Positions 3,564 to 30,353 of a stretch of DNA of 64,000 nt are shown here, in pieces. The position numbers and the translations under genes are program-made. The stretch spans positions 96,527-160,526 of the forward strand of contig RZZW01000002.1 of the NCBI GenBank assembly GCA_009929695.1. Reading direction: 5' to 3'. Source of the DNA: Clostridia bacterium (GTDB taxonomy: Bacteria > Bacillota > Clostridia > Oscillospirales > Ruminococcaceae). Every line of letters begins with the position of its first letter. Positions within the stretch are counted from its first letter, which is position 1. The notes under the pieces are model-generated. The model was not told the origin of the DNA. It searched no databases and worked only from the letters and a program-made list of their open reading frames with translations.

Positions 3564-5066
3564 TCACTCTTTTTTATCGTCCTTTTTCTTATCGTCCTTT
3601 TTATCCTCTTGCTTTTCGGACTTTTTAGGGGGCGTGTTTCCACCGCCGCCAGAGCCACCGAAAAGCCCGGCCTCCATACCTGCCGCCTCTGCCTCTGAGG
3701 TAAGCGCCTTTGCTTCTTCCTCACTCATGCCCTCAAACTTTACTAAGTAATACCACTTAGGAATCCAGCCCTGCATAGCGTAAGCTCTCCACGCCGCCTT
3801 ATCTTCCTCATAGCTGTATGTAATATCACCAAAATTAAAGTTGATTTCATACTCACCGAGAGGGGCAAGGCCGTAAAGCGTAACAAGAGCGTCAGCACCA
3901 TAAAAAGCCTGTTCAAGTGCGTCCTTCAGAGCGTCACGGTCTGTTTTAATCGTCTGAATGGTGTCACGGTCATCAGATTCAACCTGCGTTGCGGTAATCA
4001 TACCCGTTTGACCGTCCATAACGAAAACGCCTTCAGAAAATCCGCATTTCACGCCAGCCATAGAGAGGTTAAAGTTAATTTCTTTGATACGGGCTTCCGT
4101 CTGAATTGTCGGTACGTGTTCATGTACGGCGGTTGTATCGCCGTCATTGATACCCATACCCAAGCCTTTAACAAACCGGGGAAGCGTAATACCTTTGTTG
4201 TTAGCGTTCTGAATAGCCTGCTGACCTACAAAGGTAATGTGCTTGCTGTCCTCAATTTCGGTATTCATACGGCTTATGCCGGTATCAATAGCCTTTAACT
4301 CAGTAATAGCGTTTGCAAAAACGGATAAACCGAGGGGCGAAGTGGGATCAACAGTATTTGCACCGGGTACACGATAATAAGCGAAAAGAGGCTTTTCAAG
4401 ATTTGCTATGCTTACCTCAGGCTGCATATTCGCCCATACCTCAACACTGTTAAGGGCTACGGGCGTACCGAGCATAAACTTATTATCACCGTTGATTTGA
4501 TTCTTAAAGGCTTTATTTGTGACCTTGTAAATGCGGCCCCCGTTTGCGTCAGCACCCTCAAAGCGGTGGTATTCAAGACGGGTGTAATGTGCTTTGCCCT
4601 GTGTGGTGTGGGTTGCAAAGATAGCACCGACAATTTCGCCGTTATCGTCCTTTGCAGTGATACCAAAACCGCCCGGAAGCACAAAGTCCCATGTTTCACC
4701 GTTCCACTTAATCATAATACCGCCGAGCCTGTCAGCTTCGGTGATTTTATCGGGGAGGCGTTTTAACAGGTCATCTGCAAGCCCCTGTAAATAGTCAGCT
4801 CTGGGAGAGCCTGAAACGGCAATACCAATATCAAGCGTTGTGAGCTTTGCACGGGTATCTGATATGTGCTTAGCCATATTGACCGTTTCTATATCGTCCT
4901 CCGTATTCCTCCACGGAGGTCTGCCGGTGGAAATATTATCCCACCTCTGAAGGGCGTTGCTCATTTCATCAGAGGTAATGAGATCAACGCCAAATTCCTT
5001 ACCTATATCGGAGCTTATTAAAAACATATTTCTTATCCTCCTTAGTAGGCGAGTAAAAAAGTTCAT
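3564..5066 (-). CDS. Phage portal protein
   Basis: 500 aa SPP1 gp6-like organisation, acidic/lysine tail, between terminase and minor head gene. Confidence 0.85.
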   Translation of the reverse strand: MNFFTRLLRRIRNMFLISSDIGKEFGVDLITSDEMSNALQRWDNISTGRPPWRNTEDDIETVNMAKHISDTRAKLTTLDIGIAVSGSPRADYLQGLADDLLKRLPDKITEADRLGGIMIKWNGETWDFVLPGGFGITAKDDNGEIVGAIFATHTTQGKAHYTRLEYHRFEGADANGGRIYKVTNKAFKNQINGDNKFMLGTPVALNSVEVWANMQPEVSIANLEKPLFAYYRVPGANTVDPTSPLGLSVFANAITELKAIDTGISRMNTEIEDSKHITFVGQQAIQNANNKGITLPRFVKGLGMGINDGDTTAVHEHVPTIQTEARIKEINFNLSMAGVKCGFSEGVFVMDGQTGMITATQVESDDRDTIQTIKTDRDALKDALEQAFYGADALVTLYGLAPLGEYEINFNFGDITYSYEEDKAAWRAYAMQGWIPKWYYLVKFEGMSEEEAKALTSEAEAAGMEAGLFGGSGGGGNTPPKKSEKQEDKKDDKKKDDKKE

Positions 5067-5081
5067 ATCTCATCACCGCCT

Positions 5082-6326
5082 TTATACTATCCACTTTAAC
5101 TCATTCCGTAGGGCTGTGCGGCAGAAATACCGTAGCTGGTCCATGCTGTGATCGTTCTCTTTGATAACAGCGTCCTCAGCCTTTTCTTCGTCCCATGAAT
5201 AAGTTTCAAATTCATCAAAGGTGCTTTTGCACCCCTTATGAAAATACAAAACACCGGCATTGAGGAATTTTGTAACGTCCTGTATGCCGTTGATAACATC
5301 ATTGTCGGCTTTCATTACGATCCACTGACCGTATTTCTGTATTGTTTCAATCATTGACGAAGCCGAGGGATCAATGATTATATACTCAATAGGATAATCG
5401 CCTATCAAGTCCGAAAGCATTTTATAATACTCTTCGTTGTCAACACGGTTGTTGCTACCGCCCTTGTAGTAAAGCTCTTTTATCATTACCGCCTTTTGTT
5501 CGGCAGGGCTGTAATCATATAAGCCTGCTGCAAACGGGTTTACCGTACCATAGTCTATTGACACATAATAGCGGTGTCGGGGACTACGGGCAGGAATGTT
5601 ACTTACAATATGAGCCGCCCGGTTGAACATAGGGTAAACAAGCCCTTCAGCCTTAACCCACAAACCGAGAATATAACGGCGGTAAAACACGCCGGAATAC
5701 ATACCCTCATAACGCTGTCTGATTTTATCCGAAAGACTTAAATTGTCATTCATAGTGAAATGCAAATAGAGTATGTTTCTCTCTTTTGCCTTTTTTATCC
5801 ACTCAACATAAAACCAGTGTCCGGGGTTTTCGGGGTTGCAGTTAAACCAAAACTTAGAGCCGTCCACACTGCAACGGGCCATAGCCTGCTCAACAAAGGA
5901 ACGGGGCATAAGTGCCACTTCATCAAAGAGAACACCGGCAAGCGTGATACCCTGCACCAGTGTGTAGCTTGATTCGTCCTTGCCGCCGAAAAGATAATAG
6001 TAGTTTACAGTATTGCCGGATTGAATAATCAGCTTGTTTTCGCTTCGGCGTTCCGTAATAGTAAAAATACCCTCTAACCACTGAGGCATAAGGGTAATTA
6101 CATTTCGGCGTAGTGATTCTATTGTCTTGCCGCAAATGGCGAAGTTCTGACCGTTAAAATTGCTCATGCTCCATAGTACAAAGCCGTCTGTCATTGATAC
6201 CGTCTTACCAGAACGGATAGAGCCGTCACAGATTATACCGTCATAATCTTTGAGCTTCGGTCTATTCCACCACGTCAGCGTCAAGTTCTGCCTCTTGCTG
6301 AAGCTCTGGTAGATCATCTGTATCAA
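5082..6326 (-). CDS. Terminase large subunit (PBSX-type)
   Basis: GSIRSGKTVSMTDGF Walker A; GVLFDEVALMPRSFVEQ Walker B; DPSASS nuclease region. Confidence 0.92.
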   Translation of the reverse strand: MIQMIYQSFSKRQNLTLTWWNRPKLKDYDGIICDGSIRSGKTVSMTDGFVLWSMSNFNGQNFAICGKTIESLRRNVITLMPQWLEGIFTITERRSENKLIIQSGNTVNYYYLFGGKDESSYTLVQGITLAGVLFDEVALMPRSFVEQAMARCSVDGSKFWFNCNPENPGHWFYVEWIKKAKERNILYLHFTMNDNLSLSDKIRQRYEGMYSGVFYRRYILGLWVKAEGLVYPMFNRAAHIVSNIPARSPRHRYYVSIDYGTVNPFAAGLYDYSPAEQKAVMIKELYYKGGSNNRVDNEEYYKMLSDLIGDYPIEYIIIDPSASSMIETIQKYGQWIVMKADNDVINGIQDVTKFLNAGVLYFHKGCKSTFDEFETYSWDEEKAEDAVIKENDHSMDQLRYFCRTALRNELKWIV

Positions 6327-10953: not shown

Positions 10954-13362
10954 TTATCGTCTGACAAAGCCCCTTTGAACGTTATAAGGTCCAAAGCGTA
11001 ACACGGTATCAGAACGCTTCCAGCCGTCCATATTTGCCAGCACTGCGTTAATTTCACGGGTATCAGAGGGCTTCATATCACGCACACTGCCGTTAAAGAG
11101 TTCACACCAAACCTCAACGGCTGAGATACGGTCACGGTCAACCAGCTCAACCGTGTTACCCTCTGCCGAGTGTGCCGCCCCAGCCCAGAAGTCACGGCGG
11201 CGGTCAAGCGCCCATTTCGCCCAGTCTGACGGTATCTGTCTTTCGGCAAATTCCATTATCAGACCTTCACGGACGGAAACTTCTCTGTGTTCCTCCTGCT
11301 TAATCTTAGCCTCTGCCTCCACATTGCCGGTCAGGTACAGATCTTCACCACACTGCCAGTAAGCCTTAGCCTCAGCCCAAAGCTGATTGATTGTTTCAGG
11401 GGTGAGGTCATGCCATACATTTTTAGTGTGCGGCTGTTCTCCCACATCAACGGGCCAGAAGCGGCGGTTGCCGGTGGTGTCCTGCAAAAAGTCTGTAGTG
11501 TTCGTAGTGCCGAAGAACACACAGCACCGGGGCAGCTCTTTTACGTGTCTGCCGTAGGCGGCACGGTAGCGGTCAGCACGGAGGGACAAAAACTGCTTGA
11601 TACGGGCAACATCTGTACGCCTGAAAGCGTCCAGCTCTGATACCTCTACAAGCCATACGCCCTGTAACAGTTCGCTTGCGTCCTTGCCCTCAAAGGTGCG
11701 GATAGAATCGTTAAACCAGCCGAGGGACATTTTATCAAGCAGGGTTGACTTACCGATACCCTGAGGACCTGCAAGGATAAGCATATTGTCATACTTGCAA
11801 CCGGGGATCATAGCCCTTGCTATCGCTGCCGTAAAACTTTTACGGCAAACTGCACGGTTGTAGGCTGTATCTTTTGCACCGAGGTAGTCAATAAACAGAG
11901 TATCAAGGCGGCGCTCACCGTCCCATACAAGGCTGTTTATGTAGTTCTGCACCTCATTGAAAGCGTGTTGTGCGGCGTGAACATCAAGGGCGCTGTCGAT
12001 ATTGCCACGCTGAGTGATACCCCACATACGCTCAAGATACCAGTACAAACCGTTGCTGTCTGTGTCACTCCAAAGGCGGCGTTTTCCGTCCTTCTGCCAC
12101 GGCAACGGACCTAACACCTCACCTCTGTTTGCAAAGAGGTTAAGAGCGAATTTGTCTTTAAGAAGCGGATCACCGTCAAGGATAATCAGGATATTATCAA
12201 TAGTCCCTTTGACTGCACCGTTCTGATTACGCTGTAACTTTTCAGCCCAGTCATCAGGTGCGTCCTCTGCCGCCTGCTCAAAGCCCTCAAAGTCTTTGAT
12301 AGCCGCTTCGTGCTGTTCCCGGTTAAGAGTAGCAACAACGGATTTATCAGTCAGTGCAAAGTTGCACATTTCTTTATAAGAAGGGAGCTTCGTAACGGGT
12401 GTTTCGGGGTTGCTGTCTGCGTCTTTGTCCCCGTACTTGTGTAGCCTTACAAGGTCAAACGCATTTACCAGCCTGCCGCCGCACGGATCAGTAGCATGGT
12501 GACTGTATAAATACTTAGCGTCATCATAGATAATTGCACCGCCCGTTGTAGAGCCGCCGAGATATGTATATCTGTCCTCTGAGTTATCAACCGCCTCATA
12601 GATTTTCGGTAAGAATGTTTCCATAGCAGAAACAACATCATAGGTACGGCAGAACGCCCCGACAAGTCCGGGCTTCTCCAACGGATCACCCTGTTTCATA
12701 GCGAGCTTCTGATAGCTGACGGCGTTAGGGACCTGCGGCCAGCTCAGGAAATCGTGCCAGTCAACATAGGTTGATAAAAGGAAATCCGCTGATATAAGGG
12801 CTGCGTCTTTCACCTGATAAACATAATCACTATCAGAACAGCAAGAGGGCCAGTACATAAGACGGCAAACCTCAAAGGTTGTAGGATCAGCCATACTGAT
12901 ACCAATATGTGAGGCGATTCTACGGGCGCACGGCTCATATTCGTCCGGCGTTACCGTTCTGTCAAGAGGAACGATAACACGAAGGCGCGGTCTGCTTGCA
13001 TGGTGCTTACGGGTGCTATAAACACAGTAGCTACAATTCAGTTCTTCTACTTTGTCTATGACCGTTTGCGTCTGCCAACCGGGGATATTATCAAAGTCCA
13101 GAGTGACTATATCACGCCCGATAACACTATTTGCCTTACGGCGCATACCGTTAAGAGCGCCACCAACAAAGCCGCCCACGTCCTTTAATGTGTCCTGCTC
13201 TGACTTCTTCATAGCAAGATATTCATTGTATGTTTCGTTGCCTCTGTTCGGCACACGCAAGCGGTCATACAGGTCAGATACCGTCATAATCGTTTGCTTC
13301 CATGTTAGATCACGGCGGCTGTTGCCTGTAGATATTGTTATCTGTCTATCGTTTTTTAACAT
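10954..13362 (-). CDS. Virulence-associated protein E-type primase/helicase
   Basis: VTLDFDNIPGW primase part; ILAGPQGIGKSTLLDKM Walker A; FFGTTNTTDFLQDTTGNRRFWPVDV. Confidence 0.92.
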   Translation of the reverse strand: MLKNDRQITISTGNSRRDLTWKQTIMTVSDLYDRLRVPNRGNETYNEYLAMKKSEQDTLKDVGGFVGGALNGMRRKANSVIGRDIVTLDFDNIPGWQTQTVIDKVEELNCSYCVYSTRKHHASRPRLRVIVPLDRTVTPDEYEPCARRIASHIGISMADPTTFEVCRLMYWPSCCSDSDYVYQVKDAALISADFLLSTYVDWHDFLSWPQVPNAVSYQKLAMKQGDPLEKPGLVGAFCRTYDVVSAMETFLPKIYEAVDNSEDRYTYLGGSTTGGAIIYDDAKYLYSHHATDPCGGRLVNAFDLVRLHKYGDKDADSNPETPVTKLPSYKEMCNFALTDKSVVATLNREQHEAAIKDFEGFEQAAEDAPDDWAEKLQRNQNGAVKGTIDNILIILDGDPLLKDKFALNLFANRGEVLGPLPWQKDGKRRLWSDTDSNGLYWYLERMWGITQRGNIDSALDVHAAQHAFNEVQNYINSLVWDGERRLDTLFIDYLGAKDTAYNRAVCRKSFTAAIARAMIPGCKYDNMLILAGPQGIGKSTLLDKMSLGWFNDSIRTFEGKDASELLQGVWLVEVSELDAFRRTDVARIKQFLSLRADRYRAAYGRHVKELPRCCVFFGTTNTTDFLQDTTGNRRFWPVDVGEQPHTKNVWHDLTPETINQLWAEAKAYWQCGEDLYLTGNVEAEAKIKQEEHREVSVREGLIMEFAERQIPSDWAKWALDRRRDFWAGAAHSAEGNTVELVDRDRISAVEVWCELFNGSVRDMKPSDTREINAVLANMDGWKRSDTVLRFGPYNVQRGFVRR

Positions 13363-13881: not shown

Positions 13882-14232
13882 CTAATTTATCTCAATAACA
13901 GCAGTAGGGTACATCTTGCAGTTTTTGAGAATATTACTGAGAAATTCTATTGTAGTTTCCACAGTACCCCAGCCATTTGACGGCTCAAACTGTCTATACC
14001 TCTGACTGTACCGCATAAGCTCCGTAACACCTGCGTCAAGCACAGGTATCAGTTCCTCACAGCTCTTGCCGTTCCAATCTGACGGGTAAGAGCCGCAAAC
14101 CTCTTTTATCATAGCGGAGGTGTTGCAGGTGTGATTTATCCAGTCATCACCGACATAAACCCACTGTTCCGCACCGTCAAGTTTTGCCTTAAAGCTCACA
14201 TCATAGCTCATTGTGTAGCCTCCTTTATTCAC
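13882..14232 (-). CDS. Hypothetical phage protein
   Basis: Tight overlap with rtcB; SD present. Confidence 0.55.
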   Translation of the reverse strand: MNKGGYTMSYDVSFKAKLDGAEQWVYVGDDWINHTCNTSAMIKEVCGSYPSDWNGKSCEELIPVLDAGVTELMRYSQRYRQFEPSNGWGTVETTIEFLSNILKNCKMYPTAVIEIN

Positions 14233-15391
14233 TTGCTTTGAAGTTATACACGGGCTTAATGATTTTGATAACCTTTACAGTATCGGCTATACGTTCCAGT
14301 ATTTCAGCAGCCGGTTTATAAGCCTGTGGTGCTTCGTCTAAGGTTTCCGAGCAAACAGAAGTAGTAAACACGCCTGTCATTGTTTCCCGGTATTCCTCTA
14401 ACGGTATTTCTGCCTTTGCTTTTGTGCGGCTCATAAGCCGTCCTGCACCGTGAGGCGCCGAGCAGTTCCAGTCCTCATTACCGAGGCCCATACCGAGAAT
14501 ACAACCGTCACGCATATTCATAGGAATAAGCACGGTGCGTCCTGCCTGTGCAGCAATAGCGCCCTTGCGTACCATACCTTCATCATCAATGTAGTTATGT
14601 ACTGTGTGGAAGCTGTCTATTGCTTTCCAGCCCATTTGTTTACAAACAACCGCCGCTATGCGTTCACGGTTATATCTTGCAAATATCTGACACTGCTTCA
14701 TATCGTAAAGGTAATTTTCTCTGTCTGCACCCTCTACATAGCAGAGATCACGGGGGATTTTAGGTGTTTCCTTTTTAAGAGCTTTCAGAGCCTCAGATAT
14801 TTCACGTTCACGCCCTTCTGCCTTTAATTGAGCTATGAGCGCCGCCCGTTTCTCTTTCGGGGAGCTGAGCGTTTCAATGGCGGTGTTCTGGTATATTTCG
14901 GCAACCTGCTTTCCGAGGTTACGGCTGCCGGTGTGGATAATGAGATATTTTCCACCGTCTGAATCTTCGTCAACCTCTATGAAATGATTACCACCGCCAA
15001 GCGTACCAAGAGAGGCGTGTAAGTGTTCAACGTTTCTCAGTTTCTTGTAGCACACCAAGCTGTCAATCAGCGAGTAGTGACCGTATTCACTGTGAACGTT
15101 CATGCCTGAGGGTACATTATCACGGATAACGCTATCGAGTTTTTCATAGTCAATGGGGATATTACCGAGGCTCACGGTGAACATACCGCAACCAATATCC
15201 ACACCGACAATGTTCGGGATAACCTTATCACCGAGATTTGCGGTAAAACCGATTACACACCCAGCGCCAGCGTGAACATCCGGCATGATCCGTACCTTGC
15301 AATTTTCAAAAGGCTTTTGAGCAAGCAAAAGGTCAATCTGTGCCTGAGCTTCCGGCTCAATGGTCTTTGCAAATATTTTCAAGTCTTTCAT
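14225..15391 (-). CDS. rtcB: RtcB-family RNA ligase (phage-encoded)
   Basis: GVDIGCGM, GTLGGGNHFIEV, HTGSRNLGKQVAEIYQ, SFHTVHNYID, APHGAGRLMSR motifs. Confidence 0.93.
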   Translation of the reverse strand: MKDLKIFAKTIEPEAQAQIDLLLAQKPFENCKVRIMPDVHAGAGCVIGFTANLGDKVIPNIVGVDIGCGMFTVSLGNIPIDYEKLDSVIRDNVPSGMNVHSEYGHYSLIDSLVCYKKLRNVEHLHASLGTLGGGNHFIEVDEDSDGGKYLIIHTGSRNLGKQVAEIYQNTAIETLSSPKEKRAALIAQLKAEGREREISEALKALKKETPKIPRDLCYVEGADRENYLYDMKQCQIFARYNRERIAAVVCKQMGWKAIDSFHTVHNYIDDEGMVRKGAIAAQAGRTVLIPMNMRDGCILGMGLGNEDWNCSAPHGAGRLMSRTKAKAEIPLEEYRETMTGVFTTSVCSETLDEAPQAYKPAAEILERIADTVKVIKIIKPVYNFKASE

Positions 15392-15564
15392 TGTGTATTT
15401 TCCTCCTTCTTAATGAGGTTAAGGTTTTCGGCTAAGTCCGTTTCAAGCTCAACCGTTATATATTCATAGCCACAGCTCACACATTTTCTTTTCCTTTTTA
15501 CAGATTCACAGTCTGTGCGGCTGTCAACAACCTTTGTTTTCCCTGCACATTTGGGACAGTTCAT
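15388..15564 (-). CDS. Small zinc-ribbon protein (58 aa)
   Basis: MNCPKCAGKTKVVDSRTDCESVKRKRKCVSCGYEYITVE...; ATGA overlap with rtcB. Confidence 0.7.
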   Translation of the reverse strand: MNCPKCAGKTKVVDSRTDCESVKRKRKCVSCGYEYITVELETDLAENLNLIKKEENTQ

Positions 15565-16183: not shown

Positions 16184-17062
16184 TCAGCCTCCTTTTAAGT
16201 ATGATGATTTTATTACACCACTTTCGGGCAACGGGGGGGGGCAAACCTCACGAAGTTCAGTATAAAAGGCTTTATTTTTAATAGATTTTCCAGCCGCTAT
16301 ACATTCATCTTCAAAAGCAAACCGCTTTTCCAAGTCCTCAACGGTACTGTAACCCTTAAATACGCGCCAAGTTTTCTTATCCGTTTCTCTAAGTTCTTCC
16401 CAGAGGTCGGGGTAATACTTTCTTAGGTTTCTAAGGTCATCAAGCGATTGCAAAGGACAACACCAGCAGCTTACCCGGTTGAACACTTTATACAGTCCGT
16501 CCCAGTCGTAGCCGAGCTTATAACAGTAAGCCAAACAGTCAGCCTCAGTCCAGTTCCAATAAACAAGTGGGTAAATGTGATCTTTTTGCTGATTACTTTT
16601 GCGTTCTAACCTGTATTGTTCATCAGCGGCAATGCCTATCAAATGAACAACATCATATTCGGCTTCAAGTGCTTTGAAGTGCCTGTTTATCACATCTTGC
16701 TTTAACTTACTGGTACACCACCGAGAACGGCTACCAGCCCAGCCATAGCCCACACGCTCAACATCTTTATATAGGTGCTTCTTTGTCCGGGTATCAAAAC
16801 GGTGTTCAAGCAAATAATAATCAAAGGATTTTTCACTTTGAACACGGGTGAATTTCACACCAGCAGATTTAACGAGCTTTTCAATCTTAGCTATGTGCGT
16901 TACCATTGAGGGAAATTCTTTCCATGTATCACAGTAAAGCACTTCGTCTAAGGGGTACGCTATGTGATTACAGATATGTAGTTTTAGCCATTCAAGCGTT
17001 AAAGCGGTGCTGTCTTTGCCTCCTGAAAAGCTGATTACATAGTATTTTTTCTTTTCATTCAA
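16184..17062 (-). CDS. Phosphoadenosine-phosphosulfate reductase-family PP-loop protein
   Basis: SFSGGKDSTALTLEWL PP-loop; SCWCCPLQSLDDLRNLRK. Confidence 0.88.
   Translation of the reverse strand: MNEKKKYYVISFSGGKDSTALTLEWLKLHICNHIAYPLDEVLYCDTWKEFPSMVTHIAKIEKLVKSAGVKFTRVQSEKSFDYYLLEHRFDTRTKKHLYKDVERVGYGWAGSRSRWCTSKLKQDVINRHFKALEAEYDVVHLIGIAADEQYRLERKSNQQKDHIYPLVYWNWTEADCLAYCYKLGYDWDGLYKVFNRVSCWCCPLQSLDDLRNLRKYYPDLWEELRETDKKTWRVFKGYSTVEDLEKRFAFEDECIAAGKSIKNKAFYTELREVCPPPLPESGVIKSSYLKGG
16233..16241. repeat. Homopolymer G9 near the 3' end of the PP-loop gene
   Basis: caacgggggggggcaaac. Confidence 0.9.
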
Positions 17063-17783
17063 GCAAACAGCCTCCTAACTCTGACAGCCTCTCAGCCGCC
17101 ACATTAAAGTATTTTTCTTCCTGCTCAAAGCCGATACACACCCTGCCGGTGTTTACTGCGGCTATAAGCGTTGAGCCGCTGCCGAAGCAGTTATCAAGAA
17201 CGGTGTCACCCTCATTTGTATAAGTCCGTATGAGGTATTCAAGCAAGGCAACGGGTTTTTGTGTCGGGTGATAGGACTGAGGGTGTTCCTTCGGAATATC
17301 AATGATAGACAGAGGGTATTTCTCATTCGTTACCACCACCGGCGTTGACTTAAACTCCCCATAACAGCCGTTGCGTCCCTGTTTCTGTGTAGCGTTTCCT
17401 GCACCGCCTCTGGTGTGGCAGGTATCGCCAACGGTAAACTGAGGGTTGTAGGTGGGTTGCTTATCATAGAAAACGCATATATCCTCACTTATCCGTAAGG
17501 GCTGTTTCTTTGCATTTAAGAAGCCGGTAGGTCTGTTTCCCTTTTTCCATATCAGATTGTACTTCCACATTTTTCTGTTACTCTGCATAAGGTCTGAGGT
17601 AAACATACCGCTTGCAAACAGGACAATAGCACCGTTATCTTTTATCACCCGTTTGTAGTGCCGCCACAATTCCGGGAACGGAATAACGCTGTCCCATTTT
17701 GCATTTGGGTTTTTGCTATTCAGTACCCCGTATGGTAAATCACACAGAATGAGATCAACCGAGTTATCGGGTATTAAGTGCAT
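17055..17783 (-). CDS. Beta-class (DLPY) DNA N4/N6-methyltransferase, N-terminus possibly truncated
   Basis: DLILCDLPYGV; YHPTQKPVALLEYLIRTYTNEGDTVLDNCFGSGSTLIAA. Confidence 0.88.
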   Translation of the reverse strand: MHLIPDNSVDLILCDLPYGVLNSKNPNAKWDSVIPFPELWRHYKRVIKDNGAIVLFASGMFTSDLMQSNRKMWKYNLIWKKGNRPTGFLNAKKQPLRISEDICVFYDKQPTYNPQFTVGDTCHTRGGAGNATQKQGRNGCYGEFKSTPVVVTNEKYPLSIIDIPKEHPQSYHPTQKPVALLEYLIRTYTNEGDTVLDNCFGSGSTLIAAVNTGRVCIGFEQEEKYFNVAAERLSELGGCLLE

Positions 17784-18808: not shown

Positions 18809-18961
18809 TCATAAAATTGTTAAAGCCACCAGCAACAGGATAAAAAGCCCTGCCGCCGAGCTTGCAAAAAAGATACCTGTCTTTATTGTCTTTGCACTCA
18901 TAGCCATAAGGCAGAAGAAAACGGCAAAGACGAGCAATGTGATTTGTGTAGCAAGTGTCAT
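18809..18961 (-). CDS. Small membrane protein
   Basis: MTLATQITLLVFAVFFCLMAMSAKTIKTGIFFASSAAGLFILLLVALTIL, SD present. Confidence 0.55.
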   Translation of the reverse strand: MTLATQITLLVFAVFFCLMAMSAKTIKTGIFFASSAAGLFILLLVALTIL

Positions 18962-20596
18962 AATGTTTCCTCCTGAGGAAAGCGTACTTTTGTAACGGCT
19001 ATCGGAAATTCCTCTATTTCCGAAGCCCACAGGCAAGAGCCTTTTCCGTTCAGCATTTCCCATATCAAAGGAAAGCCGCCGATACCGTCAAACAGGCTTG
19101 CCATAGTGTTATCAGAGCCACAGCAGAGCGTCAGCTTTGAAAGAACATAAAACCACGGCGGTATTGCAATACTGTTTCCGAGTGCCTTATAACGGGCGCT
19201 ATCAGTAATGGGCTTGCTTTTCAGCTTTCTCCCGTATTTATCGGTTTTCTCATAGTCACCTATATCAGTCCACCCGTCCGGGAAGCCCTGCAACCGTTCA
19301 CATTCAAGAGGTGTCAAACGGCGTACTATCATTTTGTCAAGCACATCAACCTGTCTTGAACGCATTAAAGTAGGTGCGGAGCTTTCAGAAGCACTTATAT
19401 CCGCACTCTCTGACGCTTGCCCGTGAAAAGCACATACAGCAGAGGGACCTTTTGCAACAAGCGTTGAGTTGATACCGTCCTCACTGATCCTGAAGTTATA
19501 TTGTGCGTTTTCACCCTGATTAAATGCCGCACGATCCAAAGCAATAACACCGTTTCTGCCTGAGGACATACCACAATTTACGCCCAGCGTTGCCGCCTTA
19601 TCGCCTGTAAGAGCCGCATTGTAACCGTCAACGCCCTGTGCTTTTTCTTTCGGTGTTACAGCAACGGCGGTATAATCAGTAACACGGTTTTGGTGATCTC
19701 CCGTCATAGTGGGTGCAATCTTACCGTCACCGTTTCCCCGTGCGTCATACACAGCAGAAGAATCCTCAGACAAAACCAAACGCCCTTTAACATCAGCCTC
19801 ATGCTTCGGTGCGCCTGCACCGCTTCTCAGGGTGCTTGCAACATCAGCTAAAGGTAACTGTTTTGCGGAAACAGCCGGACGGTCAACGGTGTTGAGCGTG
19901 TAGCTCACGCCCTCCGTCCAGCCTCTACCGTTACAACCTGCGGTGTCGGCACGGTCAATGCAGTTGCCCTGTATGCAGTATGTAGGGGCTACTCTTGTGC
20001 CTGCCGTTCCAGAACGGCTCTCAGCAGTTCGGGTAGCTCTTTCCCACGGCGTTCTGCCCTGCGGATAATACCCTGACACGCCTTCGCGCTCAAAGAGTAT
20101 TTCGGGTGCGGTAAGTCCTCCAAAATCTGCGACAAGTGCGATTCTACGCCTACGCTGGGGGACTCCCCAAAACTGAGCGTCGAGTACACGCCACGCAACG
20201 CTCCAATCCCCCCCCCATTCCAACGAGGCAGCCGCTTGTGGGCCAGCCGTCATTAGGCATAGGAACAACGGGGGCTTCTTTGCAGACAACCCGGACTGTT
20301 TCTTGCAAGACTGCTCCGAAGTCTGCTCCTTTGTTTGAGCTAAAAGCTCCGGGTACATTTTCCCAAACCATAAAGCGAGGTCTGATATTTGTACCTGTTC
20401 TACCTCTGTGTTCATCTGCTTTCCTCATTTCTTTAATTACTCTGAGCTGTTCCATAAACAGCCCTGAGCGTTCCCCGGCAAGCCCAGCACGTTTTCCGGC
20501 AACGCTTAAATCCTGACACGGGCTACCTCCGATTATGACATTGACGGGGGTAGCCTCAGCACCATTGATTTTTGTTATATCGCCTAAGTGTTTCAT
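18958..20596 (-). pseudogene. Circularly permuted C5-cytosine DNA methyltransferase, split by a 9-nt G/C homopolymer
   Basis: 5' part (20150-20596) GGSPCQDLSVAG and WENVPGAF; 3' part (18958-~20208) WGVPQRRRRIALVADF, LTPLECERLQGFPDGWTD, YKALGNSIAIPP, then MASLFDGIGGFP at the C-terminus. Confidence 0.85.
20208..20216. repeat. Homopolymer C9 (G9 on coding strand) at the frame break
   Basis: ccaatcccccccccattcc. Confidence 0.9.
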
Positions 20597-21079: not shown

Positions 21080-21121
21080 AGAAAATGCCTCCTTAATATT
21101 TTCAATGAATTTGTACCGGGA

Positions 21122-21139
21122 GGCCCCACGAAGGGGGCC
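21122..21139 (-). other. GC-rich hairpin 20 nt downstream of the variable C-terminus
   Basis: GGCCCC-CTTCGT-GGGGCC on minus strand, no T-run. Confidence 0.7.
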
Positions 21140-21159
21140 AGATTCCGGGAGTTATTAGA

Positions 21160-21786
21160 TTAAATCGAGAAGCCGAACGCCACGCCATTAGCGTTGTAGG
21201 CGGTGTCGTAGTTGTAGGCGCTACCGTTGGAGTAGACATAACAGAAATAGGACGAGGACTGAGAGTAGGGGGAACGAAGCCACCACCACCAAGTACCGTG
21301 ATCCGCACACTCTTTAACACGGGATTTTTCGGTGTGGAAAATATCAAGCTGTGTGTCCTCCGGCTCATATTCGGAATAGTTGCCCTTGCCGAAAACCTGT
21401 GTTCTGGAAAGCAGGAAAAGTTTGTCCTCACACTCAACACGCTCACCGTCCAAAACCTGAACAACCTTAGTAGGCTTAATGAGTGCCTGCAATTCGTCAG
21501 GCAGCAGATTAAAGACGGTTTTGTTGAGGTGCTTACGCATATCACTTTCAGCCCAGCCGCCCTTGTTTGTGGAACGCTTATTCATAGCGTGTTCATCTTC
21601 AAGACAGTCCTCAAGGACAAAGAACAGATTTCCGTTCATATCGTGTGTAGCTCTTGCCGCCACTTCCTCACCCGTTTTCAGATTGAAATGAATGAGGTCA
21701 CGGCTTTTAATTTCACCGGCTTCAACAGCCGTTTTCAGGTCAGCCCACTCACCGGGCGTAACCGTTTCTTTGATAAAGTTAATCAT
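21160..21786 (-). CDS. DUF6273-like protein with C-type-lectin/DGR-type variable C-terminus
   Basis: TWWWWLRSPYSQSSSYFCYVYSNGSAYNYDTAYNANGVAFGFSI. Confidence 0.75.
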   Translation of the reverse strand: MINFIKETVTPGEWADLKTAVEAGEIKSRDLIHFNLKTGEEVAARATHDMNGNLFFVLEDCLEDEHAMNKRSTNKGGWAESDMRKHLNKTVFNLLPDELQALIKPTKVVQVLDGERVECEDKLFLLSRTQVFGKGNYSEYEPEDTQLDIFHTEKSRVKECADHGTWWWWLRSPYSQSSSYFCYVYSNGSAYNYDTAYNANGVAFGFSI

Positions 21787-21799
21787 AAGATTTGCCTCC

Positions 21800-23779
21800 T
21801 TAATCTTTTTTGAAAAACATTCCTACCCAGCCGTCAGCACCGAGGGGTAAGCCCTGCGCCCACGGGATAGGCGTTGACATGATTTTTACAACAGTGTCTA
21901 ACATTGTTTCGTTGTCTGCAAACGGCTTTATATCAATGACTACTTCATCATGCACATGGAACACAACGGGAAGCCCTGCTTCCTCTAAGTGTTCAATAGC
22001 CTGTGCCAAGCAGTCACGGGCAATAGCCTGTACGCAATTCTCAACAAGTTTGCCGCCGTAGGTTTCTATCCTGCCCCAGTGGTTTTTATCGTTCAGCCCC
22101 ATATAGGAGATTGACGCACCGCCCCAGCGGTTTTCACCGATAGCAGGATCAATGTAGTAAAGTTTTCTGCCGGAGGGCAGAAGGATTGACATACACGTTC
22201 TGCCTTGCGTATAGTCATACTCTCTTGAAAGCGTAAGCCCTCTTACATTGACAGAGCCGCCACAGTTAATTACCTGCACAGCCGCACTGTCAAAGGCGTA
22301 CCACAGATCACGTATCTTTGAGTTTGCGTCACGCCAGCGGCTTACAATATCGGGTAAGTCCTCTTCGGGTATTCCCATATCAAGAGCGCCCATGTTAATT
22401 AGTGCGCCGGTGCTGCCCTGATAGCCAAGAGCCAGCTCAGCAACCTTGCCTTTTTGCCTCAGGTGTCCGTTCTCACCGCCTTTTACAACGTTGCAATGGA
22501 ACATCTGAGAGGCAGAGGCGCAATAAATATCACCGCCACTGCGGAATACTTCAAGCCGCCACTCTTGACCGGCAAGCCATGATATAACCCGTGCCTCAAT
22601 AGCTGAGAAGTCAGCGTCAATGAGTACGTGTCCCTCTGGTGCAACAAAGGCTGTGCGGATAAGCTGTGATAGCGTATCATTTACACTGCCGTACACACAT
22701 TTCAGACCGTCAAGGCTTCGGCTCTTTACAAGTTCTCTTGCGAGTTCAAGCGGCTCTGTGTAGGTACGGGGCAAATTCTGTACCTGCACCAAGCGTCCAG
22801 CCCAGCGCCCGGTACGGTTTGCACCGTAATACTGTAAAAGCCCTCTCACTCTGCCGTCAGGACAAACGCACTCTTGAATAGCGTCATACTTTTTGGTAGA
22901 GGTTTTTCCGAGTTCTTGACGGATTTCCAGCATACGGTTTACCGTATCGCTGTTTTCGTCACGGTCAAGTAGCTTGCTAACGGTATCTTTTCTCAGGTTT
23001 ACGATTTCCTCACCTGTTTCATCAGCAAGCCACTGACCGAGCTGTTTAACACTGTTAGGGTTGTATAGCCCTGATATTTGTATTGCCTCCGTAGTAAGCG
23101 ATTCACGCACGGTTTCACCGAGAGCCAAAGCCCCGTGAACGAAGGACATATCAACGGCAACGCCTCTGTCATTGATAAGCAGGTCCGTTTCCCACTGCTT
23201 CTGAACAAAATCGGGAACGGGGAAAGCGGATAACCTGCTATCAATTTCCATTTCCGTTACAACGTCCTGCTTGCAGTATTCTTTGAACAATTCCCACTTA
23301 GCAGGATCATGGTGAGGGTAGTTGCGTGTCCGCTGACCGTTAGCCTTTGAGGGCTTACAGGGTACACAGAAATAGCGTATAAGGGCTTTACCTGTATTGA
23401 GCTTCTGCTTATCCTCAGGCAGCCCTAACGCCCGTCCTGTGGCCTCCAAGCCTGCCGTATAGCCGCAATACAAGCCGTGAAGCATTGTGTCCCTCCACTG
23501 TGAGGGCGGTAACTTAATACCTGTGTATCGGCTAAGGCAGCCCCACTCAAACGGTGCGTTATATGCGTGTTTTATGTACTCAGGGCTATACAGTGCTTTT
23601 ATAAGCCATTCGGGGGGCTGTTCGCCCTGAGCCATATCCACTATCTCAACAGGGGCGTTATCAACGCTATACGCAAAAAGCAGGATTTCAAAGTCAGGGC
23701 TTCGTAAGTAAGCCTGCGCCCCGGCTTTTTTAATCGGAACACTTGAATAGGTTTCAAGGTCAATGCTTAGTGTGTGCAT
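21800..23779 (-). CDS. Phage DNA polymerase (family A)
   Basis: DADFSAIEARVISWLAGQEWRLEVF; VFHVHDEVVIDI. Confidence 0.95.
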   Translation of the reverse strand: MHTLSIDLETYSSVPIKKAGAQAYLRSPDFEILLFAYSVDNAPVEIVDMAQGEQPPEWLIKALYSPEYIKHAYNAPFEWGCLSRYTGIKLPPSQWRDTMLHGLYCGYTAGLEATGRALGLPEDKQKLNTGKALIRYFCVPCKPSKANGQRTRNYPHHDPAKWELFKEYCKQDVVTEMEIDSRLSAFPVPDFVQKQWETDLLINDRGVAVDMSFVHGALALGETVRESLTTEAIQISGLYNPNSVKQLGQWLADETGEEIVNLRKDTVSKLLDRDENSDTVNRMLEIRQELGKTSTKKYDAIQECVCPDGRVRGLLQYYGANRTGRWAGRLVQVQNLPRTYTEPLELARELVKSRSLDGLKCVYGSVNDTLSQLIRTAFVAPEGHVLIDADFSAIEARVISWLAGQEWRLEVFRSGGDIYCASASQMFHCNVVKGGENGHLRQKGKVAELALGYQGSTGALINMGALDMGIPEEDLPDIVSRWRDANSKIRDLWYAFDSAAVQVINCGGSVNVRGLTLSREYDYTQGRTCMSILLPSGRKLYYIDPAIGENRWGGASISYMGLNDKNHWGRIETYGGKLVENCVQAIARDCLAQAIEHLEEAGLPVVFHVHDEVVIDIKPFADNETMLDTVVKIMSTPIPWAQGLPLGADGWVGMFFKKD

Positions 23780-23802: not shown

Positions 23803-24426
23803 TTACATAGGAAGCCCGGTAATGGGGTTGATTCTGGGAGCTACCGGCTGTGTAGCCGTTGCACCGACAGCCGGAGCAACCGCCTGACCGACACCGGCAA
23901 AGTCGGAGGCTGCGGAAGCACCGCCGCCCAAAGGCTCACCGTCACGGGTTTTCATAACATTACCGAGGCCGCAACCCACACCCGTTTTTCTGTTCTTGTA
24001 GCCGTAGAAATTGAGCGTTACACGGGCATACATTCCAGAATAAATATCCTGAGGTGCGAGGTCACAGTTTACGTTACTCTGATCCACAACGCCGGGTTTC
24101 TGTTCGGAAGAAGCGTTGAGAACGTAATGACCTTTACATTCAGGTCCGTAGGGCGTTCCTGCGTCCGGCTTTACGCCGTCACCGTCATGGAGAATATCTG
24201 CGAAGTTCGGACGGACACCGCCCCACTTTTCATTGACCGCCTTCTGAGCCGCCGCCTCAATGGAATTACGAATATCCTGCACGGTGGCAACATCGGTCTT
24301 AGGGATAAGAAGCTGAACAGAATACTTCGGCGTATCACCGGGATTCTGCGCTCTGGGGGTAACGAGGTTTACATAGGACAGACGGACTTCACCCGTCAGC
24401 ACTTTAGTTGCAATGTTCTGATACAT
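23803..24426 (-). CDS. DUF2815 phage protein (ssDNA-binding-like)
   Basis: VRLSYVNLVTPRAQNPGDTPKYSVQLLIPKTD. Confidence 0.85.
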   Translation of the reverse strand: MYQNIATKVLTGEVRLSYVNLVTPRAQNPGDTPKYSVQLLIPKTDVATVQDIRNSIEAAAQKAVNEKWGGVRPNFADILHDGDGVKPDAGTPYGPECKGHYVLNASSEQKPGVVDQSNVNCDLAPQDIYSGMYARVTLNFYGYKNRKTGVGCGLGNVMKTRDGEPLGGGASAASDFAGVGQAVAPAVGATATQPVAPRINPITGLPM

Positions 24427-24466
24427 AATTGAAAACTCCTTTTTATCTGTTTTTCTTTGATACTGT

Positions 24467-24808
24467 TTAGAGATTTTTATAAAGGTCATTAAAACCTTGT
24501 TCCGCTAATGCGGTTAGCTTTTTACGATCAAGCCGAGGGGCGTTTAACGCCGCCTTAATAAGTGAAAACTGTTCCATAGCGTCACGGCACATCTGGATAT
24601 AACCGTCAGCCACCTTTTCTTTTTCGTCCTCCGATTCCTGAGTATATTTCAGTTCTTCTTCAACCTCACTCACGTAGGACGAAAAGCACCGAGCAGCGTC
24701 ATCACCTAACTTTTCCCTGATAAGTCTTTCAAGGAAAACCGGCTTTTCGTCAAATATGATTTCTGTTGTACCGTCTGAGAGATAAACTGTTTCAGCCATT
24801 TTCAACAC
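24467..24808 (-). CDS. Hypothetical phage protein
   Basis: Overlaps DUF2800 gene. Confidence 0.5.
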   Translation of the reverse strand: MLKMAETVYLSDGTTEIIFDEKPVFLERLIREKLGDDAARCFSSYVSEVEEELKYTQESEDEKEKVADGYIQMCRDAMEQFSLIKAALNAPRLDRKKLTALAEQGFNDLYKNL

Positions 24809-26024
24809 CTGCGAAGTCTGAAGCAGCGGTGCTGTACGGCTCTCTTTTATCGCTCAGTGGTGCAAGTGTAGGTTTGCCCTGCGGCTTCACCACATAGTCA
24901 GTCATAGCCTCAGCAAATTTCTTTTTACCGAGCAGGCTTTCAACCTCTGTCAGTGTTTTAGGCTTACGCTCATAAAGCATTTCCTCATTGTAGCCCAGCT
25001 CAATAACAGCCTTAAATGCTTCGTCAACGTCCTTAAAGGCTCTGTTACTGCGTCCGGCTACAAGTTTCCAACCGGGGATTTCTTTTCCGGCAAGGATAGT
25101 AGCGGTAGCGTATTCCTGTAAGTCCTTGTACCACTGCACAAGTGATTCCGCACGGGTAAGTAAGTCACCAACCTCAGCGTCAGAGAGCATAGGCGGTAAA
25201 CCGATAACGGCTTTTGCCTCAGGTGAAAGCTCTTTGAGTTCGGGTGCTACCTTGCCCTCAACGGCAAAGTCCTTGAAGTCCTCAAACGCTGTATGCTGAT
25301 CCGCACGGGCGCGGCACTGAGCCTTACCTTTGCAGAAACGGCAGTGTTCACCGGGACAGAATGTGCCGGGACCGTTGAAAGCCTCCTGTGCAACAGGCTT
25401 AATACTTTCACCCCAAGCCGTGAGTTCTTCCACTGTAAGAAAATCCTCACTTGCTTCCTCTGAAAGACGGGGCTGACAGATACCCATTGATACATTTTTG
25501 ATTGCACCGCCGAAAACGGGAGCAAACATTTTGAGTGCGCCGAGAGCGTAAAGCCTCATTTGAGGATTACCAACGGCTGACACTGCAACGCCTTTTCCGT
25601 GCTTGTAGTCTGTAATGTGGAGCGTGTCACCGCCAATCATTACACAGTCACAAGTTCCAAAGCCTTCAGGAACATAATCGGAAAAGTCAACCTGTACTTC
25701 CTGTGTCACATACGGTGCGGCTGTGTAGCCCAGCGCCTTTTGTTTCAGGTAGTCAACATAGGCTTCTGCCGTTTTCAGCATTTCATCTGAATAGTACGGG
25801 CTTTCGCTGAGCTTTTTCAGCTCAGAGTTGAATTTACGCTTAGTAACGGTGGTAAAGTATTTACGGGCGTAAAGCTCACAAATACTGTGTGCAAGCGTCC
25901 CTTCCTCTGCATAGTCAGTAGTGCCGTTAGGAAACTGAGCTTCAAAGAGAGGGGCAGCCGTACACTGCAACCAGCGGTGAGCCGAGGACGCACTAAGCAA
26001 AGCGTGTTTGTTAGGTGTCGGCAT
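24792..26024 (-). CDS. DUF2800 phage nuclease-like protein (PD-(D/E)XK, Cas4-like)
   Basis: LLSASSAHRWLQCTAAP; ITDYKHGKGVAV; FCPGEHCRFCKGKAQCRAR. Confidence 0.88.
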   Translation of the reverse strand: MPTPNKHALLSASSAHRWLQCTAAPLFEAQFPNGTTDYAEEGTLAHSICELYARKYFTTVTKRKFNSELKKLSESPYYSDEMLKTAEAYVDYLKQKALGYTAAPYVTQEVQVDFSDYVPEGFGTCDCVMIGGDTLHITDYKHGKGVAVSAVGNPQMRLYALGALKMFAPVFGGAIKNVSMGICQPRLSEEASEDFLTVEELTAWGESIKPVAQEAFNGPGTFCPGEHCRFCKGKAQCRARADQHTAFEDFKDFAVEGKVAPELKELSPEAKAVIGLPPMLSDAEVGDLLTRAESLVQWYKDLQEYATATILAGKEIPGWKLVAGRSNRAFKDVDEAFKAVIELGYNEEMLYERKPKTLTEVESLLGKKKFAEAMTDYVVKPQGKPTLAPLSDKREPYSTAASDFAGVENG

Positions 26025-28736: not shown

Positions 28737-30353
28737 GTGTCTGTTGATATTCAGTTTAACATTCCGAAAGATAAGCCAATAGGTGAAACGCTTGCTGTGG
28801 TGTACGCCCGGTATTCTTCCCACAGTCAGGGTGAACAATCCATTGAGGGGCAGTTATCAGAGGCACGAAAGTACGCCGCCTCTCACGGATATACCATTGT
28901 GCATGAATACGTTGACCGAGCCAAAACAGGACGCACAGATAACCGTGAGGAATTTCAACAAATGCTGAAGGACACGGCAAAGAAACAATTTGAGGTTATT
29001 ATCCTCTGGAAAGTTGACCGTTTCGGACGGAACAGAGAGGAAATAACCTTTAACAAGTACAAGTGCAAAAAGAACGGTGTCCGTGTTGAGTATATAGCTG
29101 AAACGATACCGAACACGCCGGAGGGCGTTATTTTGGAAAGTGTGCTTGAGGGCTTCGCTGAGTATTACAGCCTTCAGCTTTCACAGAATATCCGTAGAGG
29201 GCAAGCCGAGAGTGCCGAGAAATGCCAAAGCACGGGCGGCAACCGTCCGTTAGGTTATAAGACAGGTCCCGATAAGAAATTTATCATTGATCCTGAAACA
29301 GCACCGACCGTACAGCTCATTTTTAGTATGTATGCTGCCGGTCACACGGTAACAGAAATTGTAAAGCACCTGAACAGTTTAGGACTGCACACGCTCAGAG
29401 GCGGCAAGTTTACCAATAACAGCCTGCACAGCGTTTTGAATAACGAAAAATACACAGGCGTTTATATCTACAAAGACCAGCGAATTGAAGGCGGTATGCC
29501 CCGTATTATTGATGATGATACCTTCCAAAAGGTACAAGAAATGCTGAAAGTGAATAAACGTGCGCCTGCGGCAAAATGGACTAAGGCTGATTACATTTTA
29601 ACCGATAAGGTATTTTGCGGTAAATGCGGTATGCCTATGATCGGAGAATCGGGAACGAGTAAGACAGGTGCAAAGCACAATTATTATATTTGCTCTAAAA
29701 AGAAACGGTTTAGACAGTGCGATAAAAAAGCCGTCCGGCAGGCTGACCTTGAACAGCTTGTAATAGAAAAAGCCTTAGAGGTTTTACAAGATGATGAACT
29801 ACTTGAATTTATCATTGAGAACACATGGAATTTCTATCAGGCGCAGGACGAAAGCCGGGAGGAATTAGAATCTTTACACGCTCAGCTTGAACAGGCAGAA
29901 AAGGGTATTGCAAACTTAGTAAGAGCCATTGAAGCCGGTATCATAAATGAGGCTACCAAAAAGCGAATGGACGAATTAGGGGAACAGAGGAAAACCTTAC
30001 TTGCTGCCATAGCTGACAGAGAAATAGCAAGAGGCTTTCACATAACACGGGATCACATAGCCTTTTTCCTTTACAGCCTCAGAGATTTAGACTATGAGGA
30101 AAAAGAGAGCCAGAAACGCTTGATACAGGTGTTCGTAAACTCTGTGTATGTATTTGATGATGAAATAACAATCAATTTCAATTACACAAGCGGAAATGTT
30201 ACTATTTCACTGAAAGAAACAGAGGACGGCAAGGCTGGTGAAGGGTTCGTACACCGTGCGTCTTGCTCCACCATTGTTCCCATAGACGAACACTTTGTAT
30301 CGTCTATGGGAATTTTTTTGTCTTGCTGTGTATCATATATTTTATACTCTTGA
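28737..30353 (+). CDS. Large serine recombinase (phage integrase)
   Basis: VVYARYSSHSQGEQSIEGQL; WKVDRFGRN; recombinase and zinc-ribbon domain FCGKCGMPM. Confidence 0.95.
   Translation: MSVDIQFNIPKDKPIGETLAVVYARYSSHSQGEQSIEGQLSEARKYAASHGYTIVHEYVDRAKTGRTDNREEFQQMLKDTAKKQFEVIILWKVDRFGRNREEITFNKYKCKKNGVRVEYIAETIPNTPEGVILESVLEGFAEYYSLQLSQNIRRGQAESAEKCQSTGGNRPLGYKTGPDKKFIIDPETAPTVQLIFSMYAAGHTVTEIVKHLNSLGLHTLRGGKFTNNSLHSVLNNEKYTGVYIYKDQRIEGGMPRIIDDDTFQKVQEMLKVNKRAPAAKWTKADYILTDKVFCGKCGMPMIGESGTSKTGAKHNYYICSKKKRFRQCDKKAVRQADLEQLVIEKALEVLQDDELLEFIIENTWNFYQAQDESREELESLHAQLEQAEKGIANLVRAIEAGIINEATKKRMDELGEQRKTLLAAIADREIARGFHITRDHIAFFLYSLRDLDYEEKESQKRLIQVFVNSVYVFDDEITINFNYTSGNVTISLKETEDGKAGEGFVHRASCSTIVPIDEHFVSSMGIFLSCCVSYILYS
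30278..30320 (+). terminator. Rho-independent terminator at integrase 3' end
   Basis: TTCCCATAGACGA...TCGTCTATGGGAA followed by TTTTTT. Confidence 0.7.

Follow-up and report, generated by a model that had tools for sequence, protein, structure and literature searches.

Diversity-generating retroelements (DGRs) of phages have been thought of mainly as diversifiers of tails. One known example, that of Bordetella phage BPP-1, combines a reverse transcriptase (RT), Avd and a template repeat (TR) with A-specific mutagenesis of a single adjacent target, mtd, and depends for target recognition on a GC-rich hairpin that follows the variable repeat (VR) (PMC3240598). Guo et al. found that this post-VR structure is required for homing, that the sequence of the stem may vary while the loops are conserved with a 4-nt consensus, GRNA, and that homing falls when at least 2 bp are removed from the loop-adjacent stem (PMC3240598).

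Layouts with two targets are already known from a few gut phages. Roseburia phage Shimadzu (LR596903) carries one TR, Avd, RT, a VR1 in a tail fibre and a remote VR2 in the small DUF6273-type orf43, which lies between a DNA methyltransferase and an Erf recombinase. In Acutalibacter phage Fontainebleau (ON453893), a DUF6273 gene stands right after DNA polymerase I, and the TR adjoins the RT. In two Faecalibacterium phages, Lelie and CP11, a single DGR serves a large and a small DUF6273 target; both VRs are reported to vary among the cognate genomes of CP11, and no read-level variation was reported for the Lelie DGR (PMC11792537). Two-target cassettes with small DUF6273 proteins have also been described elsewhere (PMC10743442), and a 2025 Nature paper reports four prophage species from the human gut in which a second VR is distal (PMC12629997). 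Distal second VRs also occur in the Bacuni phages (PMC8143477), but these are Bacteroides phages, and their targets are DUF1566/Fib_succ_major-type proteins. Remote targets were beyond the detection of the 2021 global survey of Roux et al. (PMC8144416).

Here we analyze the window, a stretch of 64,000 nucleotides (C28:96527-160526, contig C28 of a 2.68-Mb draft genome), in which we identify with high confidence the second, remote VR of a prophage DGR; that its product is an early intracellular binder is our guess, at about even odds. The locus shares with Shimadzu the single TR, Avd, RT, tail VR1 and small remote target, with Fontainebleau the position behind a DNA polymerase gene, and with Lelie and CP11 the pairing of a large and a small DUF6273 target. 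It differs from Shimadzu, which has myovirus-type tail genes, an RT only ~48% identical to ours and a VR2 that is 14 kb from the cassette rather than 37 kb; from Fontainebleau, whose RT is only 31% identical and whose hairpin loop has 5 nt; from Lelie, after whose VR2 no hairpin was found; and from BPP-1 in having more than the one adjacent target and in its loops, which here and in relatives have 4-6 nt of mostly other sequence than GRNA. New here are the breadth of the layout (20 records), a hairpin common to both sites, divergence of the remote site in nature that is specific to A, and a neighbourhood in which methyltransferases recur. The small DUF6273 protein is a recurrent second target of these elements, often encoded amid replication or DNA-methyltransferase genes.

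The Remote Target Gene and Its Neighbourhood

The target gene (21160-21786, minus strand) encodes a DUF6273/C-type-lectin-fold protein of 208 aa, whose C-terminus reads ...TWWWWLRSPYSQSSSYFCYVYSNGSAYNYDTAYNANGVAFGFSI. Its sole confident domain is DUF6273 (Pfam PF19789; residues 52-202, positions 21181-21633; 95.7 bits against a cut-off of 23.5), and no tail-attachment domain was recognised. Searches with NCBIfam families gave no match for this protein, Avd or the tail target, and PADLOC gave none for the VR2 protein. The preliminary description had placed the gene in a replication module, and the annotation bears this out. DNA polymerase A lies immediately upstream (21800-23779, PF00476), followed by the phage single-stranded DNA-binding protein (SSB; 23803-24489, PF10991) and a DUF2800/PD-(D/E)XK nuclease (24792-26024; PF10926, PF12705). 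The other flank holds a C5 cytosine DNA methyltransferase (18958-20596), an N6/N4 DNA methyltransferase (17055-17783, PF01555) and, further on, a VapE-like primase/helicase (10954-13362, PF05272), all of these genes being on the minus strand.

Several features of this region deserve separate mention. The C5 methyltransferase occupies two overlapping frames (18958-20415 and 20150-20596, PF00145 in both) and is split at, or close to, a tract of 9 C (near 20204-20216), which is either an assembly error or a phase-variable tract. Adjoining the N6/N4 methyltransferase is a PAPS-reductase-family protein (16184-17062, minus strand) that PADLOC matches to SspD and DndC and that is possibly related to DNA modification. 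An RtcB-type RNA ligase is also encoded in this phage replication region (14225-15391, minus strand).

The predicted structure is consistent with a variable lectin domain. An AlphaFold2 model of the target, built with 13 relatives, reached a pLDDT of 79.6 and a pTM of 0.82; VIA-align placed it near the Treponema DGR variable protein TvpA (2y3c; Z 7.1) and C-type lectins (Z 5-6), and Foldseek against the PDB returned weak matches only. These scores, with Z under 8, by themselves lend modest support to a C-type lectin fold of the variable domain. In the model the VR encodes the C-terminal beta-hairpin region, as it likewise does in the models of PMC10743442. The closest structure to the model was the N-terminal region of the Thomasclavelia ramosa IgA peptidase (PDB 9qa6, Z 14.4), which suggests that the DUF6273 fold may also be present in a secreted protease of gut bacteria.

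The Cassette, Its Template and the Prophage

The preliminary description had proposed a DGR-type variable C-terminus and had found neither RT nor TR. Their absence holds for the window itself; it does not hold for the contig, where both lie ~37 kb from the target, about 16-17 kb to the left of the window start. A search of the rest of the genome located the two on this contig and in the same prophage, and the idea of a genome without an RT was ruled out by the Pfam RVT_1 search. The cassette is arranged on one strand in the order tail-type ORF with VR1, Avd ORF, TR, RT-2 RNA and RT. The tail-type target (C28:81164-86686) has 1840 aa and a C-terminal DUF6273 domain with VR1. It is followed by an Avd-like protein of 134 aa (C28:80577-80981; phrog_3206 'Avd protein of DGR', E 3e-9), by the AAC-rich TR (C28:80402-80538) and, beyond the RNA, by the DGR RT of 382 aa (C28:79038-80186; RVT_1, phrog_1423), in which YMDD and LGSQISQ motifs were read by eye. 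As minor points, a CotH-kinase match of the tail target is weak and below threshold (E 0.003), and a second RT is encoded elsewhere in the genome (G000:C19:52278-52889, L001) within a 1025-aa open frame; its best PADLOC matches are general RT and UG17, and no test that was run related it to this DGR.

Directly between TR and RT sits an RT-2 RNA (Rfam RF03077; C28:80181-80400, equal to L004:3181-3400; minus strand; 146 bits, gathering cut-off 40). In this DGR and six sampled relatives, the RNA begins at most ~20 nt from the end of the TR and stops near the start of the RT. From this position RT-2, an orphan RNA family, appears to form the 3' part of the template RNA of DGRs, and we infer that it may be a defining feature of DGRs.

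Comparison with the TR carries the identification of the remote VR. A 119-nt stretch of the target gene (VR2; 21167-21285, minus strand) matches the TR at C28:80401-80519 with 12 mismatches (90% identity, E 1e-40), and 11 of these fall on the 30 template adenines (hypergeometric P = 5e-7); the remaining one, a C>T change at the 3' edge, is found in VR1 as well. Between TR and VR1, 17 of 21 mismatches are at template A, the exceptions again lying at the edges. Whole-genome BLAST with the TR returned TR, VR1 and VR2 only, the next match having an E of 0.3. At the level of sequence, the TR/VR2 pattern is what marks mutagenic retrohoming, here into a site remote from the template. With RT, Avd, TR and RT-2 RNA in the same prophage, and with VR2-TR mismatches at adenines but for the one edge exception, the proposed DGR-type C-terminus is well founded.

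TR and VR2 are 37.2 kb apart on one contig. Genes for tape measure, portal (3564-5066, phrog_533) and terminase large subunit (5082-6326, phrog_2) fill the interval, nearly all on the minus strand as these two are, and a serine integrase (28737-30353, plus strand, phrog_95) is encoded beyond the replication genes, near the right prophage end. Since portal, terminase and tail genes occupy the space between them, cassette and VR2 fit into one prophage, at roughly 73-128 kb of the contig.

In the mechanism that we propose, RNA of the TR beside the RT would be reverse-transcribed with errors at adenines, and the cDNA would then take the place of the corresponding 3' ends of two genes, the long tail-type gene next to the cassette (VR1) and the 208-aa DUF6273 gene (VR2). 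What would mark both targets is the VR core that they share, together with the GC-rich hairpin that comes after the stop codon.

Distribution of the Two-Target Layout

Including the window, 20 records showed the layout of a single TR that serves a tail VR1 and a remote VR2 in a small DUF6273 gene, with A-biased mismatches as verification. These are the window itself and 19 other phages or prophages, namely four named phages, 11 IMG/VR contigs, IMG/VR contig G183 and three Clostridia MAGs. Comparing each of the four named phages, all of which have a DUF6273 relative, with itself gave the same picture: a single TR, a first VR within the tail module or next to it, and a second VR in a small DUF6273 gene at another place; the mismatches of VR2 lie at A in 15/15 cases in Shimadzu (orf43), 15/15 in Fontainebleau, 15/17 in Lelie and 15/16 in Dulem virus 34. 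The RT scan of IMG/VR gave 80 loci, with a separate small DUF6273 ORF in 11 of the 35 long contigs, and every one of these 11 ORFs had an A-biased match to its own TR (VR1 was off the contig in one). Among Clostridia genome records, the layout was present in 3 of 17. Many of the contigs surveyed are fragments; across them, the two-VR layout is common, not universal. The 65-kb contig whose RT is closest (90% identity) lacks any DUF6273 match apart from its tail VR1 and TR, so the second target is optional. Direct scanning of IMG/VR yielded no close relatives of the VR2 protein, which were reached through the RT, and of 148 same-family genomes two had a protein match, one being the source genome itself.

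A Possible Intracellular Role of the Small Protein

That the protein is early and cytosolic is suggested by the position of its gene, by the N-termini of two relatives, which are rich in CxxC, and by an inspection by eye that showed no obvious export signal. We therefore propose that the small protein would be made early and stay in the cell, where its variable face may bind something inside the host, e.g., a host defence component or a protein of a competing phage, rather than serving as a virion adhesin. By our estimate, an intracellular role has an even chance, a place on the virion or otherwise outside the cell a distinctly lower one, and any other role a lower one still. A counter-defence or anti-competitor binder is our best guess, about as probable as its opposite.

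The strongest competing explanation is that the protein is a virion-attached receptor-binding protein or adhesin, similar to Mtd, which is encoded outside the tail region by chance. In its favour, most phage DGR targets known so far are tail proteins (PMC8144416), host binding in the manner of Mtd is the function preferred for the small DUF6273 targets described in PMC10743442, and the predicted C-type-lectin-like fold would suit such a function. Nevertheless, in many phages that are unrelated to one another, the gene has replication and methyltransferase genes around it, and DUF6273 is accompanied by no recognised domain that would attach the protein to a tail. A methyltransferase immediately adjoins VR2 in 10 of 18 lineages, which are not independent, and only ~4-13% of genes adjoin one in three annotated phages, by hand count. 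In addition, the targets of L139 and L097 carry an N-terminal zinc-ribbon-like (CxxC) stretch, CPDCG or CPHCG, before the lectin domain. We regard the adhesin as unlikely on this evidence, if less so than any of the alternatives discussed below.

The wider form of the intracellular reading, in which the tail DGR of many Clostridia phages would also diversify an early cytosolic, lectin-fold adaptive binder, for instance against host defences or rival phages, is put forward tentatively and is rather doubtful as yet. If true, a single template would evolve both entry and takeover functions. A defined family and the named phages Shimadzu, Fontainebleau and Lelie are now available for probing what a DGR target that is not a tail protein binds.

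Rewriting in Nature and the Hairpins

Near-identical small target genes from three different metagenomes (G176, G177 and G183) allowed the divergence of the remote site to be followed. Pairwise, 22-30 of 105 VR sites differ; upstream the figure is 26-29 of 447, and the 168 downstream sites, which include the hairpin, show 0 differences. The excess within the VR has Fisher P values of 6e-8 to 3e-12. Differences between VR2 and the phage's own TR are at A in 15/15, 15/15 and 20/21 cases, respectively. Outside the VR, pN/pS is 0.14-0.22, so that the small target is under purifying selection; inside, it is 2.5-3.6 where calculable. The remote targets are thus, to judge from these sequences, rewritten in nature, and the A-biased diversity in homologous copies for which the preliminary description had suggested looking is present as A-specific divergence in relatives. 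We infer that the window's own prophage is probably active.

The preliminary description had also noted that the stop codon is followed, at a distance of 20 nt, by an inverted repeat, GGCCCC-N6-GGGGCC, which was located at 21122-21139, where the plus strand reads GGCCCC-ACGAAG-GGGGCC, a candidate target-recognition hairpin or cruciform. VR1 is followed, after its stop codon, by a hairpin with a 12-bp stem and the loop CTTTGT; the VR2 hairpin shares with it the GGCCCC stem core and has 6 bp in the stem and the loop CTTCGT, giving a common loop CTTYGT. By itself, the 6-bp stem is not significant against shuffles (P = 0.12), and the VR2 hairpin is convincing through its match to the 12-bp VR1 hairpin and its recurrence in relatives. 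Of 16 phages tested, 15 have a GC-rich hairpin, its loop 4-6 nt long, no more than ~40 nt from the VR end. After the TR, the best stem in these 16 phages is generally shorter and GC-poor, and no comparable hairpin follows the TR of this prophage. A loop that fits GRNA exactly occurred only in Dulem virus 34.

The short stem bears on a further alternative, namely that VR2 is a fossil, a past DGR target that is no longer rewritten in this prophage. Its 6 bp against the 12 bp after VR1 would favour this, given the drop in BPP-1 homing on shortening of the loop-adjacent stem. However, VR1 and VR2 agree at all 84 non-A positions of their 114-nt core, which argues for recent copying from one template; moreover, ORF and hairpin are intact, and the relatives show ongoing rewriting. 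A fossil is accordingly quite improbable.

Origin of the Shared Core

The common core of VR1 and VR2 could in principle have arisen through simple gene conversion or duplication of the tail gene, without retrohoming. The two cores differ at 15 positions, all 15 at template A, and this A-only pattern contradicts such an origin. Furthermore, where the TRs of G176, G177 and G183 differ at non-A positions, VR2 generally follows the TR of its own phage, and we consider conversion very improbable. The protein domains just upstream of VR1 and VR2 are only 32% identical, and amino-acid use in the two VRs, where a contrast could have pointed to different ligands, showed no significant difference (P = 0.21). 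That no DGR is involved, and that an ordinary DUF6273 protein happens to have NNC codons and to be followed by a hairpin of other origin, has a negligible probability in view of the 119-nt TR match, its A-only divergence and the presence on this contig of TR, RT and Avd. Retrohoming into VR2 remains the preferred account, and its anatomy and A-only divergence are directly observed.

Other Genes and RNAs near the Remote Targets

In some relatives, the target gene is placed differently, beside a small HTH gene and at no great distance from the integrase. A conserved Cro/C1-type HTH gene of 63-72 aa is found downstream of the remote target in L097, L138, L143 and L087. A gene with an N6-methylase fold precedes the target in L138, L143 and L087, not in L097, and the same gene is present in the window's prophage at C28:73400-74149. 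Finally, the contig with the closest VR2 relative, L028, contains a Twister-P5 and a type II hammerhead ribozyme near each other, at 14849-14902 and 15384-15448.
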